64,000 nucleotides of DNA. Source: Desulfoscipio geothermicus. GTDB lineage: Bacteria > Bacillota > Desulfotomaculia > Desulfotomaculales > Desulfallaceae. The position numbers and the translations under genes were made by a program. The stretch lies in NCBI GenBank assembly GCA_016841905.1, contig JAENYF010000004.1, positions 1 to 64,000 of the forward strand, in the 5' to 3' direction. Under the pieces are notes generated by a model, which worked only from the letters and a program-made list of their open reading frames with translations, did no database searches and was not told the DNA's origin. Numbering within the stretch: the stretch's first letter is position 1; the number at the start of each line of letters is the position of its first letter. Below are positions 44,945 through 54,148 of this stretch, in pieces.

Positions 44945-45008
44945 ATGCATAAACACATCAAGCACACTAAGCCCCGCGCCCGGAGCAAAATGAACCCAAT
45001 CGTTTAAC

Positions 45009-45129
45009 AACCTTCTTCCATCCAGACTTTACTGTCGGCCCCGGAATTACACCGGATCAACCCATTAGGGCTCGCGGGCTCGGATAAGACCTTACCGCCG
45101 GTACGGAATTTCACCAGTCCCTGAAGGTT
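45009..45129 (-). promoter_or_regulatory. FMN riboswitch (RFN element) controlling ribDEBAH
   Basis: Minus-strand sequence contains the conserved RFN blocks: CTTCAGGG..., GGCGGTAA, AGCCCGCGAGCC, GATCCGGTGTAATTCCGG, GCCGACAGTAAAGTC and GGATGGAAGAAGG. The closing stem P1 pairs 45009-45015 with 45123-45129. High FMN is expected to favour the downstream terminator. Confidence 0.95.
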
Positions 45130-45147
45130 ACATATTTATTTATAATT

Positions 45148-49005: not shown

Positions 49006-49683
49006 CTATGCTATCTCAGTTTTACTCAAGCTGCCTCTGTATTTTTGCAAATCGGAAATGATGCCGTTGATCCTGTCAATAGTTGCTTTACTTTTCCAAT
49101 AGCTCTGTCCATCAGTGCAGCGGTTGAGACAGCTGTATAAAACGCTCAAGCGCAAATAAAGCCTTCTGGGTAATAACGCCACATCACCACCCAGCTTATG
49201 CCAGGCTTCAGTGAAAAAAATGGTCTTGCTGAACTGCTCATGATGCTGATTATAAAGCTCACTATTCCCGGCTGCCAAGTCATTGATAATGGAGCGGTTT
49301 TTCTTGAGCTCCTCCAGCAGTTCATCAATGATAAACAGCCTTTTTTCAGTCACCTCCTGGACTCTAATTACTTGATAATACCAGACGGTCACAATCACGC
49401 CAAACAAGGTCAGCAGGCCACCCAGCGCGGCCTCGTTAAACCCCCTGGCAAATTGCGGCGTATTTACATGCTCACCCAGGGTATGAAACAGGCCGGGGAG
49501 GGCATTGGAAAGCCACTCCCAATTGGCTAAAATCACAATCAGTTCTCTGTTCAAGGATAAAATTACCCAAACAATCACCGGGCTGAAGATCATGAGCAGG
49601 CAGATAAGAACCATCTTGGCCGAGCGCAGCACTTTACGCAGCCAACGGTTGGACGCAGCTTTCGACAGGTTGTTGACATTCAT
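49006..49683 (-). CDS. Two-TM membrane protein of unknown function
   Basis: The 225-residue protein has a basic N-terminus, one TM helix (about 25-47: LICLLMIFSPVIVWVILSL), a second (about 86-104: ALGGLLTLFGVIVTVWYY), then a cytosolic helical region (about 110-220) with Lys/Glu-rich and Trp-containing segments. No family recognised; the overall look resembles small sensors or effectors that place a helical domain under the membrane. ATG 49683 has GGGGTGATTGC upstream. It stands between terminators, so it is probably a single transcript. Confidence 0.6.
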   Translation of the reverse strand: MNVNNLSKAASNRWLRKVLRSAKMVLICLLMIFSPVIVWVILSLNRELIVILANWEWLSNALPGLFHTLGEHVNTPQFARGFNEAALGGLLTLFGVIVTVWYYQVIRVQEVTEKRLFIIDELLEELKKNRSIINDLAAGNSELYNQHHEQFSKTIFFTEAWHKLGGDVALLPRRLYLRLSVLYSCLNRCTDGQSYWKSKATIDRINGIISDLQKYRGSLSKTEIA

Positions 49684-49813: not shown

Positions 49814-49842
49814 AAAAAAAACCACCGTTTCTTAACCGGTGG
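49814..49842 (-). terminator. Rho-independent terminator after the BusR-like gene
   Basis: CCACCG (49822-49827) with CGGTGG (49837-49842), followed on the minus strand by eight T. It ends the leftward transcript through 49926. Confidence 0.75.
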
Positions 49843-49925: not shown

Positions 49926-50618
49926 TCATTTTATACTTGTAGTTTCCGAATTATGGATATAATTTACTCCCTGAATATCCTCAAGGAGCATTTCTTCGCC
50001 GTTGACCATTTGATACACTCTATTAGCGGAGTCATGGGTGCCCACCATGAGCAGCACATCACCGGCCTGCAGGGTGGTTTTGGCTTCGGGAGAAAGCATT
50101 TCATGACCGTTACGGTAAATGGACAATATGGTAGCCCCGGTACGCACCCGAAAATCGGTTTCAGCCAGTGATTTACCCAGTAAGGGTGAGTTATGGGGCA
50201 CAGTTACCTCATCTAGCTTTTGGAGCCGCCCGGCCATTTTAAATGTGTAGTCTAATAGCTCATTGGTCAGGTGATCGATCTCGGTGTTCAGCTTTTCTCT
50301 TTCCTTTAACAGCTCGGTTAAACGTTCCTGAATATCCAGCAAGACTTTTTTTTGGTTGTAGTCCGCCAGGTATTCCCGGGCGGCAGAATCTGATTTCACC
50401 ACCACACCCACACCAGGCATAACATCAACGATACCCCTTTCCTGAAGTAGCGTTAACGACCGTCTAATGGTTTCCGGCGAAACATTGTATTTACCGGCCA
50501 GCGTGGATCGGCCGAATATCTTCTGGCCGATGCGGTATTCTCCCCGCACGATATGGGTGGCGATATCCACGGCAATGGTAATGTATCTGGCCAGGTGGAC
50601 ATGTTGTTGTTCCCGCAT
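49926..50618 (-). CDS. GntR winged-helix / RCK_C regulator, BusR-like
   Basis: The 230-residue protein joins a GntR winged helix (about 10-75; STLAGKYNVSPETIRRSL, then ERGIVDVMPGVGVVV), a coiled coil (about 85-130, DIQERLTELLKEREKLN) and an RCK_C/TrkA_C domain (about 140-215; NSPLLGKSLAETDFRVRTGA, AGDVLLMVG). This is the layout of BusR, the c-di-AMP receptor that represses osmolyte-import genes in lactic acid bacteria. That layout supports, but does not prove, c-di-AMP sensing here. No transporter gene adjoins; the trkA-trkH pair in this window is a candidate target. ATG 50618 follows GAGAGCG weakly. Confidence 0.82.
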   Translation of the reverse strand: MREQQHVHLARYITIAVDIATHIVRGEYRIGQKIFGRSTLAGKYNVSPETIRRSLTLLQERGIVDVMPGVGVVVKSDSAAREYLADYNQKKVLLDIQERLTELLKEREKLNTEIDHLTNELLDYTFKMAGRLQKLDEVTVPHNSPLLGKSLAETDFRVRTGATILSIYRNGHEMLSPEAKTTLQAGDVLLMVGTHDSANRVYQMVNGEEMLLEDIQGVNYIHNSETTSIK

Positions 50619-50672: not shown

Positions 50673-51386
50673 TCATTTTGATTGATTTTTTTGGACTGCT
50701 TGATGTATTTCGCCCGCTTCAACGCTCATTGCCGCTGCTGCTGCCTTCCTAATCGCCCGTACCGCAGCTGCCGGGTCAGCTGTGCCAAATACTGCCGAGC
50801 CGGCTACCAGCACGTTGGCTCCGGCTTCAGTTACACTGCGAGCAGTCTCGGTATTAATCCCGCCATCTACCTCCAGCCACACAGCCGGTTTGTGCTCCTT
50901 TATATACCTGCTAAGCTGCTGGATTTTCGAGAGCATTTGCGGGATAAACTTTTGGCCGCCAAAACCCGGATTCACAGTCATTACCAGTACCAGATCGAGC
51001 AGGGGCAAAACATAATCCAGCCCACTGGGCGGTGTGGCCGGATTAAAGGACACGCCGGCCTGCTTACCGGCTTGTTTAATTATTTGCAAAGTGCGGTGCA
51101 AATGGGGACATGCTTCAGCGTGCACAGTGATAATATCGGCACCGGCACCAATAAAGTCATCTATATACCGGTCTGGATTTTCAATCATCAGGTGCACATC
51201 AAAGACCATACCGGATAACGGCCGCAACGCCTGTACCACCAGGGGTCCAATGGTTAGGTTGGGTACAAAATGCCCATCCATGACATCAATATGTAAAAAT
51301 TCCGCGCCGGCTTGCTCCACAGCCCGCACCTGGTCGCCCAGGGCGGTAAAATCAGCCGACAAAATTGATGGGGCAATTTTAAGCAA
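50673..51386 (-). CDS. rpe: Ribulose-phosphate 3-epimerase
   Basis: The 237-residue TIM barrel interconverts ribulose-5-phosphate and xylulose-5-phosphate. Metal and substrate residues lie in [17 protein letters not shown] (about 32-48), [10 protein letters not shown] and [12 protein letters not shown], with phosphate-binding [11 protein letters not shown] 51386 has AAAGGAG upstream and begins one base after the rsgA stop. The C-terminal [12 protein letters not shown] tail is a little longer than usual. Confidence 0.95.
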
Positions 51387-51387
51387 A

Positions 51388-52266
51388 CTAATATCTCCTT
51401 TCCGCCTCCATAACTTCCGCCAAAAAATCCAGGTAATGCCGGTAACGCAGCGCGGAGATCTCCCCCTGCTCCACAGCAGCCTTCACCGCACAGCCCGGTT
51501 CCCGACTATGCAGACAGCCGGTAAACTTGCATCCTCCCTCAAACTGAGCAAACTCATTAAAATAACCTGCTAAATCCTCCCGTCGCATGACCGGCAGACG
51601 CATACTGGAAAAACCGGGGGTATCTGCAACCAGACCACCGCCGGCCAGGGTAATCAGCTCCACATGTCGGGTGGTATGCTTACCCCGTTTTAACTTAACA
51701 CTGATATCCCCTGTTTTTAGCGCCAAACCAGGCTGCAGAGCATTTAATAGGCTGGACTTTCCCACCCCGGATGGACCGGCGAACACGGTAATCCGTTCCT
51801 TTAAAACCGCCCGAAGAGCATCCACATAGGCCCCCGTTTTGGCGCTGACCCCAAACACCGGGATCCCTGTTTTCCGGTACTCTTTTACTATATCCAGTTG
51901 CTCAGTCTCAGCCAGACCGGATAAGTCGTGCTTATTAAAGCAAATCACCGGGCTAATGCCGGCAGCCTGTGACTGCACCAGAAAACGATCCAGCAGCACC
52001 GCACTTGGCTCCGGGTTACTGATGGCAAAGACAATCACTGCTTGCTCAACATTAGCCACCGGTGGCCTGATTAGTTCTGTACTGCGGGGAAGAATTGCCT
52101 CCACCACACCCTTTGTATCACTAACCTGCTGCACATTCACCCGGTCACCCACCAACGCTTGCCCGGTCTGCCGTCGAATTTTCCCCCGGATGGCGCATTG
52201 TAAAACTTGGTCTTTAGCCCAGACGAAGTAAAAACCACCATAGGCCTTTATTATCACACCGTCCAT
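51388..52266 (-). CDS. rsgA: Ribosome-assembly GTPase RsgA
   Basis: The 292-residue circularly permuted GTPase has an OB fold (1-65), G4-like FNKHDL (about 111) before G1 [14 protein letters not shown] (about 166), then DTPGFSS, and a C-terminal zinc site ([14 protein letters not shown]). It checks 30S subunit maturation. ATG 52266 follows AGGAGGGCC. In Firmicutes it commonly follows prkC, as here (10-base gap), and RsgA is a known target of that kinase in some species. Confidence 0.95.
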
Positions 52267-52276
52267 AAAGGCCCTC

Positions 52277-54148
52277 CTATTTTAAATTTTCTTCCCAGAT
52301 TAATTCTTTGTCGATATATACCTCTACCACCCCGCTGCCCAGGTATGTGATTCCCTGTACAATCCGGTCGCCGGCCACATGTGAGTTGGCGTATTGCACC
52401 TGGCGTCCCTGGGTATCTTCTACTATTATTTCCACCACGTGGGTATTTCCGTCATCCGGTATTTCATCTGATATTTTAACCTCTGCCGATCTTTGCACCG
52501 GTCCGGGACCGTTATTTATCACCACGCTGATCTTGGTTCCCTCTTTTACCTCGGTACCGGAAACCGGTTTCTGGTTGGTAATTTGTCCTTTTAAAAAGCC
52601 GGCGGCAAATTTCTGTTCAACATCATCTTCATTGAGCAGTAGATTCAGCTCCTTTAAAATTGACCTGGCCTCATCCAGGGTATGGCGAATTAAATCGGGC
52701 ACCTTTTGTAATCTAGGCTCCGGACCCTTACTGATGGTAACCTTGATCTCCGTATCTTTGGGCACCTGCTTGCCGGGGGTTACAGACTGCAGCACTACTT
52801 TGCCTTTGGCTACTTCATCGTGGAATATTTCATTATATGGACGGGCCAGCTTTAAACCTGCCTCGTTTAACCTGTATTCCGCCTCAAAATCACTCACATT
52901 GTACAAATCAGGCACTTCCCGCATTTCCGGGCCTTTGCTGACCGTCAGGATAACCTCCCGGGGCGGTTTAACGGCAGCATCCTCCGGTCCAATGCTCTGA
53001 GCGATAACGATGCCTTTTTCCTTTTCTGCATTATATGCTTCATTAAAGCTTACTGTAAGATCCAACGCTTCCAGCTTCGACTTAGCCAGCTCTTTGGTCA
53101 TATTAACAACACTGGGTACTTTCAAGGTCGGAGTATTCATAAAGTCATATAAACCATATAGCCCGCCTGCCAGCAGACCGGCCAGGATTACTACCACAAC
53201 CCAAAGCCAGTATCGCCGATCTGGTCCTCCGGTTTTACGGGGCGCTTTAACAGCACTCTTTTTATCGGCTGCCCCGGCTCCCGACCTGGCAATAACTTCA
53301 TCGGTGGGCAAAACCATCGTGGCCTGCCCTGTGTCCTCCAGGGCGAGTTCCAAATAGCGGGCCATCTCCCCGGCACTTTTATACCGGTCTTCAGGCTTCT
53401 TTTCCATGGCCTTCATCACTACAGCCGCCAATTCCGCAGGTACGTCTTGGTTAACTTCATTAACTGGCTGCGGGGTTTCTTGAATGTGTTTGATGGCTAC
53501 AGCAATAGGACTATCACCACTATAAGGCTGCCGGCCGGTCAGCATTTCGTATAATAAAATACCCACAGCGTAAATATCTGATTGGGTGGTGGGAATCTCA
53601 CCCCGGGCTTGTTCAGGACTCAAATAATGTACCGAGCCCACAATTGTATCCGTGCGGGTGATTGTTGACGCGGTAGCTTCCAGGGCAATACCGAAATCGG
53701 TCAGCTTAGCCCGCCCATCGTCGGCAATTAAAATATTGTGGGGTTTAACATCCCGGTGAACAATATGATTTTCATGGGCATGTTCCAGCGCTTCACAAAC
53801 TTGCATAGCAAAACGCACAGCATGCTCGGGTGCAAGTACGCCGTTTTTACGGATAACGTTCTTGAGATTATCACCCTGGACGTATTCCATGACCAGATAG
53901 TGAATATTCTCTTCCTGGCCCACATCATGAATATTGACAATGTTGGGATGGGACAGGCTGGCCACGGCCTGGGCTTCGCGTTTAAAACGCCGTATAAAAT
54001 CCTCGTCCGAGGTAAACTCAGGGCGTAAAACCTTTATGGTTACATAACGGTTTAAATAGGTATCCCGGCCCTTGTAAACAATGGCCATACCTCCGCCACC
54101 CAGTTTTTCCAGTATCTCATACCTGTTTCCCAGCATTTTGCCGATCAT
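52277..54148 (-). CDS. prkC: Membrane Ser/Thr kinase PrkC with PASTA repeats
   Basis: The 623-residue kinase has an N-terminal Hanks domain (1-270): GGGGMAIVYKG, Lys in VTIKVL, HRDVKPHN, DFG and SPEQARGE. A linker with Lys/Arg precedes one TM helix (about 317-337: WLWVVVVILAGLLAGGLYG). Extracellular PASTA repeats follow (about 345-545, three copies starting around VPSVVNMT, VPDLYNVS and VPDLIRHT), then a beta-rich tail of about 75 residues. PASTA domains bind muropeptides; in Bacillus PrkC signals spore germination. ATG 54148 follows GAGGAG. The operon also encodes its phosphatase Stp and FHA proteins that bind phospho-Thr. Confidence 0.96.
   Translation of the reverse strand: MIGKMLGNRYEILEKLGGGGMAIVYKGRDTYLNRYVTIKVLRPEFTSDEDFIRRFKREAQAVASLSHPNIVNIHDVGQEENIHYLVMEYVQGDNLKNVIRKNGVLAPEHAVRFAMQVCEALEHAHENHIVHRDVKPHNILIADDGRAKLTDFGIALEATASTITRTDTIVGSVHYLSPEQARGEIPTTQSDIYAVGILLYEMLTGRQPYSGDSPIAVAIKHIQETPQPVNEVNQDVPAELAAVVMKAMEKKPEDRYKSAGEMARYLELALEDTGQATMVLPTDEVIARSGAGAADKKSAVKAPRKTGGPDRRYWLWVVVVILAGLLAGGLYGLYDFMNTPTLKVPSVVNMTKELAKSKLEALDLTVSFNEAYNAEKEKGIVIAQSIGPEDAAVKPPREVILTVSKGPEMREVPDLYNVSDFEAEYRLNEAGLKLARPYNEIFHDEVAKGKVVLQSVTPGKQVPKDTEIKVTISKGPEPRLQKVPDLIRHTLDEARSILKELNLLLNEDDVEQKFAAGFLKGQITNQKPVSGTEVKEGTKISVVINNGPGPVQRSAEVKISDEIPDDGNTHVVEIIVEDTQGRQVQYANSHVAGDRIVQGITYLGSGVVEVYIDKELIWEENLK

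Follow-up and report, generated by a model that had tools for sequence, protein, structure and literature searches.

A BusR-type GntR–RCK_C regulator in Desulfoscipio geothermicus and its predicted bipartite operator before compatible-solute genes

A 64,000-nucleotide stretch of the Desulfoscipio geothermicus genome (the window) carries a gene for a GntR-type regulator with an RCK_C effector domain. This is the architecture of BusR, known as a repressor of betaine uptake, and the locus raises the question of which genes such a protein controls here, and in response to which signal. The gene and its parts, in window coordinates, are as follows.

49926..50618, minus strand: busR-like gene, ATG start, 230 aa, GntR–RCK_C regulator (Pfam and phmmer)
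50397..50579, minus strand: winged helix (GntR), residues 14–74 (Pfam PF00392, 41.8 bits, cut-off 27)
50223..50390, minus strand: coil helix, residues 77–132, a putative molecular ruler (AlphaFold2 helix)
50010..50210, minus strand: RCK_C / TrkA_C effector domain, residues 137–203 (Pfam PF02080, 66 bits, cut-off 27)

Membership of the 230-residue protein in the BusR subfamily of GntR regulators is well supported. The order of winged helix, coil and RCK_C, which a sequence-only reading had recognised as the BusR plan, is borne out by Pfam, by an AlphaFold2 model and by near full-length phmmer homology to PDB sequences: S. mutans BusR (7wjg) matches residues 11–202 at 1.4e-27, and S. agalactiae BusR (7b5t) residues 2–201 at 4.3e-25. 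The model, built on a 17-row alignment (mean pLDDT 78.5, pTM 0.41), has the wHTH, one helix at 77–132 and the RCK_C fold. Its best 13 Foldseek matches are all BusR chains; the low global scores (TMq 0.33–0.48) we ascribe to hinge angles in the monomer model, and the RCK_C part superposes on that of c-di-AMP-bound BusR (7b5u) with an rmsd of 1.1 over 72 columns and a TMt of 0.88. The coil spans 60 residues between matched columns, compared with 61 in both S. agalactiae BusR (SgaBusR) and 7wjg. Six SgaBusR residues weaken DNA binding when mutated, namely K36, R38, R53, K54, G70 and G72 (accessible text of PMC8517857); R38, R53, G70 and G72 are identical here (4/6), K54 is replaced by R and K36 by F. 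The regulator is 92% and 91% identical to its counterparts at loci L002 and L003. The corresponding figures for the neighbouring rpe, rsgA and prkC are 79–82%, and ftsW, further upstream, also reaches 91%. The S. syntrophicum copy of the regulator (genome G400) is 98% identical to that of the window. Judged from these sequence identities, the gene is under constraint.

A bipartite element, ACAACT-N14/15-AGTTGT, recurs near relatives in the wider family, mostly upstream of opu, KamA-family aminomutase and busR genes. At eight loci where a wider-family regulator is divergent from a KamA-family gene, alignment reveals one strongly conserved intergenic block, roughly ACTAACAACT-N15-AGTTGTTAGTAGTCAA. 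The outer triplets of the element are RAC and GTY, 22 or 23 bp apart (RAC-N22/23-GTY), and published BusR sites read GAC-N22-GTC (PMC8517857, as far as accessible). When ACAACT-N-AGTTGT was counted in 60 loci (L084–L143) with at most one mismatch and spacers of 8–22, spacer 14 gave 8 sites, spacer 15 gave 16, spacer 22 gave 7 and each other spacer 0–4. All eight spacer-14 sites and 12 of the 16 spacer-15 sites are intergenic (together 20/24). They precede KamA-family genes (L084, L091, L099, L109, L110, L113), opu ATPase genes (L097, L104 with three sites, L116), busR itself (L089, L092) and lipoproteins that by eye resemble betaine-binding proteins (L115, L118, L142). At L140 (6653–6722) two operator copies separate a BusR-like gene from a dapB-type gene (Pfam), and two further intergenic sites (L114, L134) have no gene assignment. 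GACAAC-N16/17-GTTGTC occurs in 7 of 90 loci scanned, six times with N17 (GAC-N23-GTC) and once with N16, which is the exact GAC-N22-GTC (L140); near family genes, the exact GAC-N22-GTC is not enriched at the N22 spacing. Secondary half-site spacer peaks fall at 17 in relatives and at 22 in the wider family.

The core CAACT-N14/15-AGTTG was fixed from the wider family before any site in the D. geothermicus genome had been seen. It occurs exactly at two places in 3.08 Mb compared with eight for the reversed control, and therefore the core alone is not enriched in this genome. A refined Desulfotomaculia pattern, CARNCAACY-N15-RGTTG, tuned on six sites of which two are from this genome, finds two places here and none when reversed. 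One lies before ablA and the other before an EhuBCDA operon:

C72:126467-126495 (exact core C72:126471): ehuB-promoter site, about 80 bp upstream of ehuB
C50:25677-25705: ablA-promoter site, one mismatch, overlapping a TATAAT directly upstream of ablA

Downstream of the first site, the EhuB, EhuC, EhuD and EhuA genes each score above their NCBIfam equivalog cut-offs; the MscS-family gene that follows, below its own cut-off, is presumably co-transcribed with them. AblA behind the second site scores 595 bits (NCBIfam cut-off 525), and the ablB-like ORF after it (L147 4204–4728) is short, at 173 aa, and reaches 98 bits where the cut-off is 205. Contig C22 (L148) carries another ablAB pair, each gene exceeding its cut-off, without a clear operator. 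A third KamA homologue, on contig C55, is a glutamate 2,3-aminomutase (726 bits, cut-off 650) with a two-mismatch N14 site upstream. All KamA homologues were first read as AblA, a reading dropped when NCBIfam split those classified into two kinds: glutamate 2,3-aminomutases at L084 and L106 (beside busR), L149 and L210, and AblA at L147, L148, L195, L196, L200 and L203. The homologue at L184 is a cut protein whose best score, below cut-off, is for glutamate 2,3-aminomutase. The second exact core place, C77:12018 (L158 6001–6024), falls inside a 163-aa ORF, at its 3' end, some 40 bp ahead of another ORF of 679 aa; it was set aside as a presumed chance match. Within the 64-kb window, operator-like counts are not above those of shuffles, and no site is found at the busR-like gene itself. 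In the accessible part of PMC5924519, S. meliloti EhuABCD is described as substrate-inducible and not salt-induced, which counts against an osmolyte-regulon reading.

We consider it likely, reasoning from sequence, that the protein belongs to the BusR subfamily and represses the synthesis and uptake of compatible solutes through the bipartite operator, probably in response to c-di-AMP. From the observed domain plan, homology and coil length, and from the conservation and position of the operator and its co-occurrence with the regulator, we infer tetramer, DNA binding, direction of control and ligand as follows. A tetramer would form as in BusR, with the coil setting the distance between two DNA-reading heads. 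The heads would bind operators of the type GRCAACY-N14/15-RGTTGYC, with outer triplets 22–23 bp apart, on or near the promoter, and would repress genes that raise the cytoplasmic pool of compatible solutes. Predicted targets in this genome are ablA with the short ablB-like gene (N-epsilon-acetyl-beta-lysine) and the EhuBCDA-type ABC importer followed by the MscS-like gene; the glutamate 2,3-aminomutase (beta-glutamate) is a weaker predicted target. High c-di-AMP, meaning sufficient turgor, would probably bind the RCK_C dimer and promote DNA binding, and under hyperosmotic stress c-di-AMP would fall and the target genes be released. A co-repressor role for c-di-AMP appears the likeliest.

The ligand is the part of this mechanism on which the pocket residues bear most directly. 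The sequence-only reading had called the protein a probable c-di-AMP receptor and pointed to divergence in the dimeric RCK_C pocket as evidence that would count against this; divergence from BusR is largely what is found. Equivalent positions come from a 90-protein MAFFT alignment, with the SgaBusR residues taken from the accessible text of PMC8517857. A regulator ORF is present in 88 of the 90 loci of the neighbour survey (none in L115 and L119), and L114 was omitted from alignment and tree. The SgaBusR pocket, rim and interface set I153, G154, N157, V158, W159, H160, A164, T165, I166, P179, G180, P181, F182 corresponds in the window protein to L, A, D, F, R, V, A, T, I, P, E, A, K. Four of the 13 positions are identical, and W159, H160, G180, P181 and F182 have become R, V, E, A and K. 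Most of the relatives placed near SgaBusR in the tree, in which long-branch placement is unsure, retain W and PGP(F/Y/H); in the Desulfotomaculia clade FR precedes a variable stretch, and P-x-A is seen as well. The pocket departs from that of BusR, so that c-di-AMP is a putative ligand. On the alignment, this divergence from characterised BusR weakens c-di-AMP binding as a claim and does not refute it, and binding by the RCK_C domain of the window protein appears plausible. S. aureus KtrA binds c-di-AMP through D167, I168, R169, A170 and P191, among others (PMC7288161, Table 1, in the accessible part). In a register that we assigned ourselves, Arg at position 159 would correspond to KtrA R169, and D157 and I166 to KtrA D167 and I176. 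The genome is also equipped with c-di-AMP machinery, in the form of two DAC-domain genes and two ydaO riboswitches.

It is possible, if somewhat doubtful, that operator and regulon are as proposed and that RCK_C senses ionic strength, K+ or another nucleotide, or is only a structural brake. The diverged pocket positions favour such a protein, as does the response of L. lactis BusR DNA binding to ionic strength (accessible portions of PMC10243994). So do the regulators of L084, L090 and L091 (genomes G203, G119, G151), whose RCK_C pocket helix is changed or contains gaps, and genome G415, whose only BusR-like match is a 137-aa ORF without RCK_C (L213 2983–3396). The KtrA-like Arg, Asp and Ile, in the register assigned above, and the DAC genes and ydaO riboswitches of the genome argue for c-di-AMP instead.

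Rfam scans of 12 loci place a ydaO (c-di-AMP) riboswitch immediately upstream of the aminomutase gene in seven (L084, L090, L091, L102, L107, L113, L184). At L084, L090 and L091, with their changed pocket helix, this looks like a shift of sensing from the protein to RNA; no close match to the operator is seen at L090. The scan found no ydaO riboswitch at the aminomutase loci L139, L168 (in the D. geothermicus genome), L195, L196 and L200, so stacked control is not shown at the own-clade loci L168, L195, L196 and L200. At L184 (G415:C1, 1405–1807), a Na+ riboswitch, a BusR-type operator (1501) and a c-di-AMP riboswitch stand in series before a KamA-family gene. Tandem Na+/c-di-AMP riboswitches are reported to control ablA, and eam and dapB are also under Na+ riboswitches (accessible portions of PMC9337991). 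What appears new here is a predicted protein operator beside these already described riboswitches on aminomutase genes.

The association of operator and regulator was surveyed in 41 genomes, that of D. geothermicus included, with BusR-positive genomes defined by a BusR match at E ≤ 1e-15. The refined pattern gave 52 rows (51 places) compared with 21 for the reversed control, a background that is not small; every one of the 51 places was inspected. Of the 43 places in the 28 BusR-positive genomes, 28 are intergenic and the other 15 fall within ORFs of 90 aa or more; of the eight in the 13 BusR-negative genomes, seven fall within ORFs and one is intergenic, ahead of a gene resembling UspA by eye. 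Osmolyte or glnH-type genes lie behind 20 of the 43 places in BusR-positive genomes versus none of the eight in BusR-negative ones. The first gene after the BusR-positive intergenic places is KamA-family at six, ehuB at three and ProV/W/X-like at four (G151, G252, G398, G408; two ProV above cut-off, the ProW- and ProX-like proteins below). Five sites precede glnH-type genes, assigned by similarity to the L010 protein, which is below all its NCBIfam cut-offs, and two precede a single sarcosine/dimethylglycine methyltransferase-like gene (188.8 bits, cut-off 550). One site each precedes an MttB-like gene (below cut-off), dapL (above cut-off) and a 134-aa gene resembling Asp23 by eye, and three have no near or named gene. 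An M23-peptidase-like gene begins about 50 bp after an operator-like site at two sites, L179 and L180 (G252, G276), which suggests cell-wall remodelling in the regulon.

Place counts in BusR-positive versus BusR-negative genomes differ at Fisher p values of 0.015 and 0.016, and genomes with an osmolyte or glnH-type site number 12/28 versus 0/13 (p 0.0075), in both cases with relatedness ignored. The input was a hand tally in which G415 counts as BusR-positive though its ORF is without RCK_C, and some BusR-negative assemblies are incomplete (e.g. G420 57%, G412 84%, G416 86%). With the six seeds removed from the 20, 14 of the 22 remaining intergenic places still fit. No refined-pattern site before osmolyte or glnH-type genes was found in 16 of the 28 BusR-positive genomes, and in S. 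syntrophicum, with its 98% identical regulator, the pattern was found nowhere. Among the matches listed, G399 and, judged by coordinates, G383 have a spacer-14 site upstream of glnH, G403 has one upstream of a glutamate 2,3-aminomutase gene, and G343 one upstream of a lipoprotein gene whose product looks betaine-binding by eye and has no NCBIfam match. In a spacer control on relatives (19 BusR-positive genomes, palindromic sites counted on both strands), the matches listed include at least 33 sites at spacer 15, at least 31 at spacer 17, and at least 12–16 at spacers 12, 13, 14, 16 and 18. An AT-rich plus C/T filter, chosen after the sites had been seen, leaves 22 at spacer 15 and 6 at spacer 17 among the matches listed.

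These counts bear on a further explanation, that the operator is owned by a different regulator and its association with the BusR-like protein is indirect. We regard this as unlikely. A refined-pattern site upstream of an osmolyte or glnH-type gene is present in only 12 of the 28 BusR-positive genomes, as such ownership would allow; however, the wider-family element is located in promoters of busR or of genes next to it, the identity and separation of its outer triplets are similar to the published BusR specificity, and seven of the eight places in BusR-negative genomes fall inside ORFs.

The neighbours of the gene in the window are as follows.

50673..51386, minus strand: rpe, the upstream same-strand neighbour (Pfam PF00834), 54 bp from the busR-like gene
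51388..52266, minus strand: rsgA (Pfam PF03193)
52277..54148, minus strand: prkC-type PASTA kinase (Pfam Pkinase and three PASTA stretches)
49814..49842, minus strand: terminator-like hairpin and T run, 3' of the busR-like gene, read directly from the sequence

The gene had been described as standing alone. The hairpin on its 3' side agrees with this, and is missing from the terminator scan because its 9-base loop exceeds the 8 allowed; the upstream side does not, with rpe 54 bp away on the same strand. In that gap the scan lists no terminator on the minus strand, and one weak 9/12 promoter-like match lies at 50673–50645 (three found in the region, 3.2 expected). The busR-like gene is probably the last, co-transcribed gene of a prkC-rsgA-rpe operon. 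Upstream rpe on the same strand is found in 17 of 30 loci (L001–L030, several ended by contig ends). It is the immediate neighbour in L001, L002 and L003, as in the window, and L012 has only a 0.36-kb gap; in the remaining rpe-bearing loci at least one of CheW, ABC-class ATPase and CBS-CBS-ACT genes (Pfam) lies between. A 225-aa gene at window 49006–49683 (minus strand), with no Pfam match at E ≤ 1e-6, is also found downstream in many relatives. The sole Rfam match of the window at gathering score is an FMN riboswitch at 45006–45132 (minus strand; RF00050, 118 bits).

In many relatives the regulator lies between a CBS-CBS-ACT gene, which we take to be AcuB-like, and acetyl-CoA synthetase (acs), the former upstream in 19 and the latter downstream in 15 of the same 30 loci, as might be expected if it controlled acetate activation. 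This is improbable. Close copies of acs and of the CBS-ACT gene are both missing from the D. geothermicus genome (93% complete), where the best-scoring acs match has 30% identity and the best CBS-ACT match 32% over part, yet the regulator of this genome is kept at 98% identity to that of S. syntrophicum, whose locus also lacks both genes. In addition, acs is found in both orientations and no common bipartite operator is seen before it; the GAC-N22-GTC 275 bp before acs at L004 is not common to other loci. Lacking close copies in the genome and a common operator before acs, acs and the AcuB-like gene were ranked low as targets. Upstream of acs in 13 aligned loci (L004–L028), a TTTAGAAWATTC-like element lies near the start in many, and we take it to resemble a CodY box.

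Control of K+ uptake by c-di-AMP is found in many Firmicutes, but control of the window's trkA/trkH genes, with trkA proposed as a target in the sequence-only reading, is very improbable: no operator-like site with up to two mismatches at spacer 14 or 15 lies before trkA, and window counts are not above shuffles.

Beyond this genome, we see an even chance that the BusR-type repressors of Desulfotomaculia and other Bacillota govern an entire compatible-solute regulon, synthesis as well as uptake, with stacking on or trading for riboswitches. Synthesis would comprise acetyl-beta-lysine, beta-glutamate, betaine by sarcosine/dimethylglycine methylation, and dapB and dapL of the lysine pathway; uptake would comprise Ehu, ProU and polar amino acids, with hydrolases of the cell wall and a mechanosensitive channel added in places. 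The aminomutase operator of some lineages would stack with a c-di-AMP riboswitch, and in one case with a Na+ riboswitch as well, so that one messenger could gate the same gene at initiation and at elongation; other lineages may trade the protein sensor for an RNA sensor. If true, an operator before osmolyte-synthesis genes would make BusR a general osmolyte regulator, provide a transcription-factor route from c-di-AMP to beta-amino-acid osmolytes, so far tied to it via riboswitches only in the accessible literature, and connect a single signalling system with a broader response to salt stress. The ablA and ehuB sites of this genome provide exact candidate promoter sites. A literature search, mostly outside subscription journals and partly limited to accessible portions of papers, returned none that joins BusR with these osmolyte genes.

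Comparison with known systems places the window protein among BusR proteins, with differences in pocket, operator and predicted targets. The riboswitch control of PMC9337991 is alike in the kinds of osmolyte gene under c-di-AMP; it is RNA-based, and its accessible portions describe no protein repressor alongside. The RCK_C domain of S. aureus KtrA (accessible part of PMC7288161) belongs to the same domain family and, in the register assigned above, shares an Arg and an Asp of the pocket with the window protein. KtrA, however, is a transporter regulator without DNA binding, and its P191 and N175 would correspond to Ala and Thr in the window protein. S. mutans BusR (7wjg) shares family and plan at 33% identity. 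L. lactis BusR likewise shares both; its regulon comprises busAB, with arsC, hom and thrB predicted (accessible portions of PMC7051946), and its gene adjoins busAB, unlike the window gene. Such adjacency had been taken as general for known BusR proteins, which is true of L. lactis and not of S. agalactiae, where the genes are 655 kb apart. S. agalactiae BusR (7b5t, 7b5y, 7oz3; accessible portions of PMC8517857 and PMC5919688) is alike in its wHTH-coil-RCK_C plan, in coil length, in four of six DNA-contact positions, in a bipartite operator about three helical turns long and in osmolyte-gene targets, which are only predicted for the window protein. The two proteins are about 30% identical, and W/H/GPF of the S. 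agalactiae pocket are R/V/EAK in the window protein. The window-type operator differs in having triplets 22 or 23 bp apart and an AACT/AGTT inner part, and the predicted targets include osmolyte synthesis (ablA, eam), not just betaine import.
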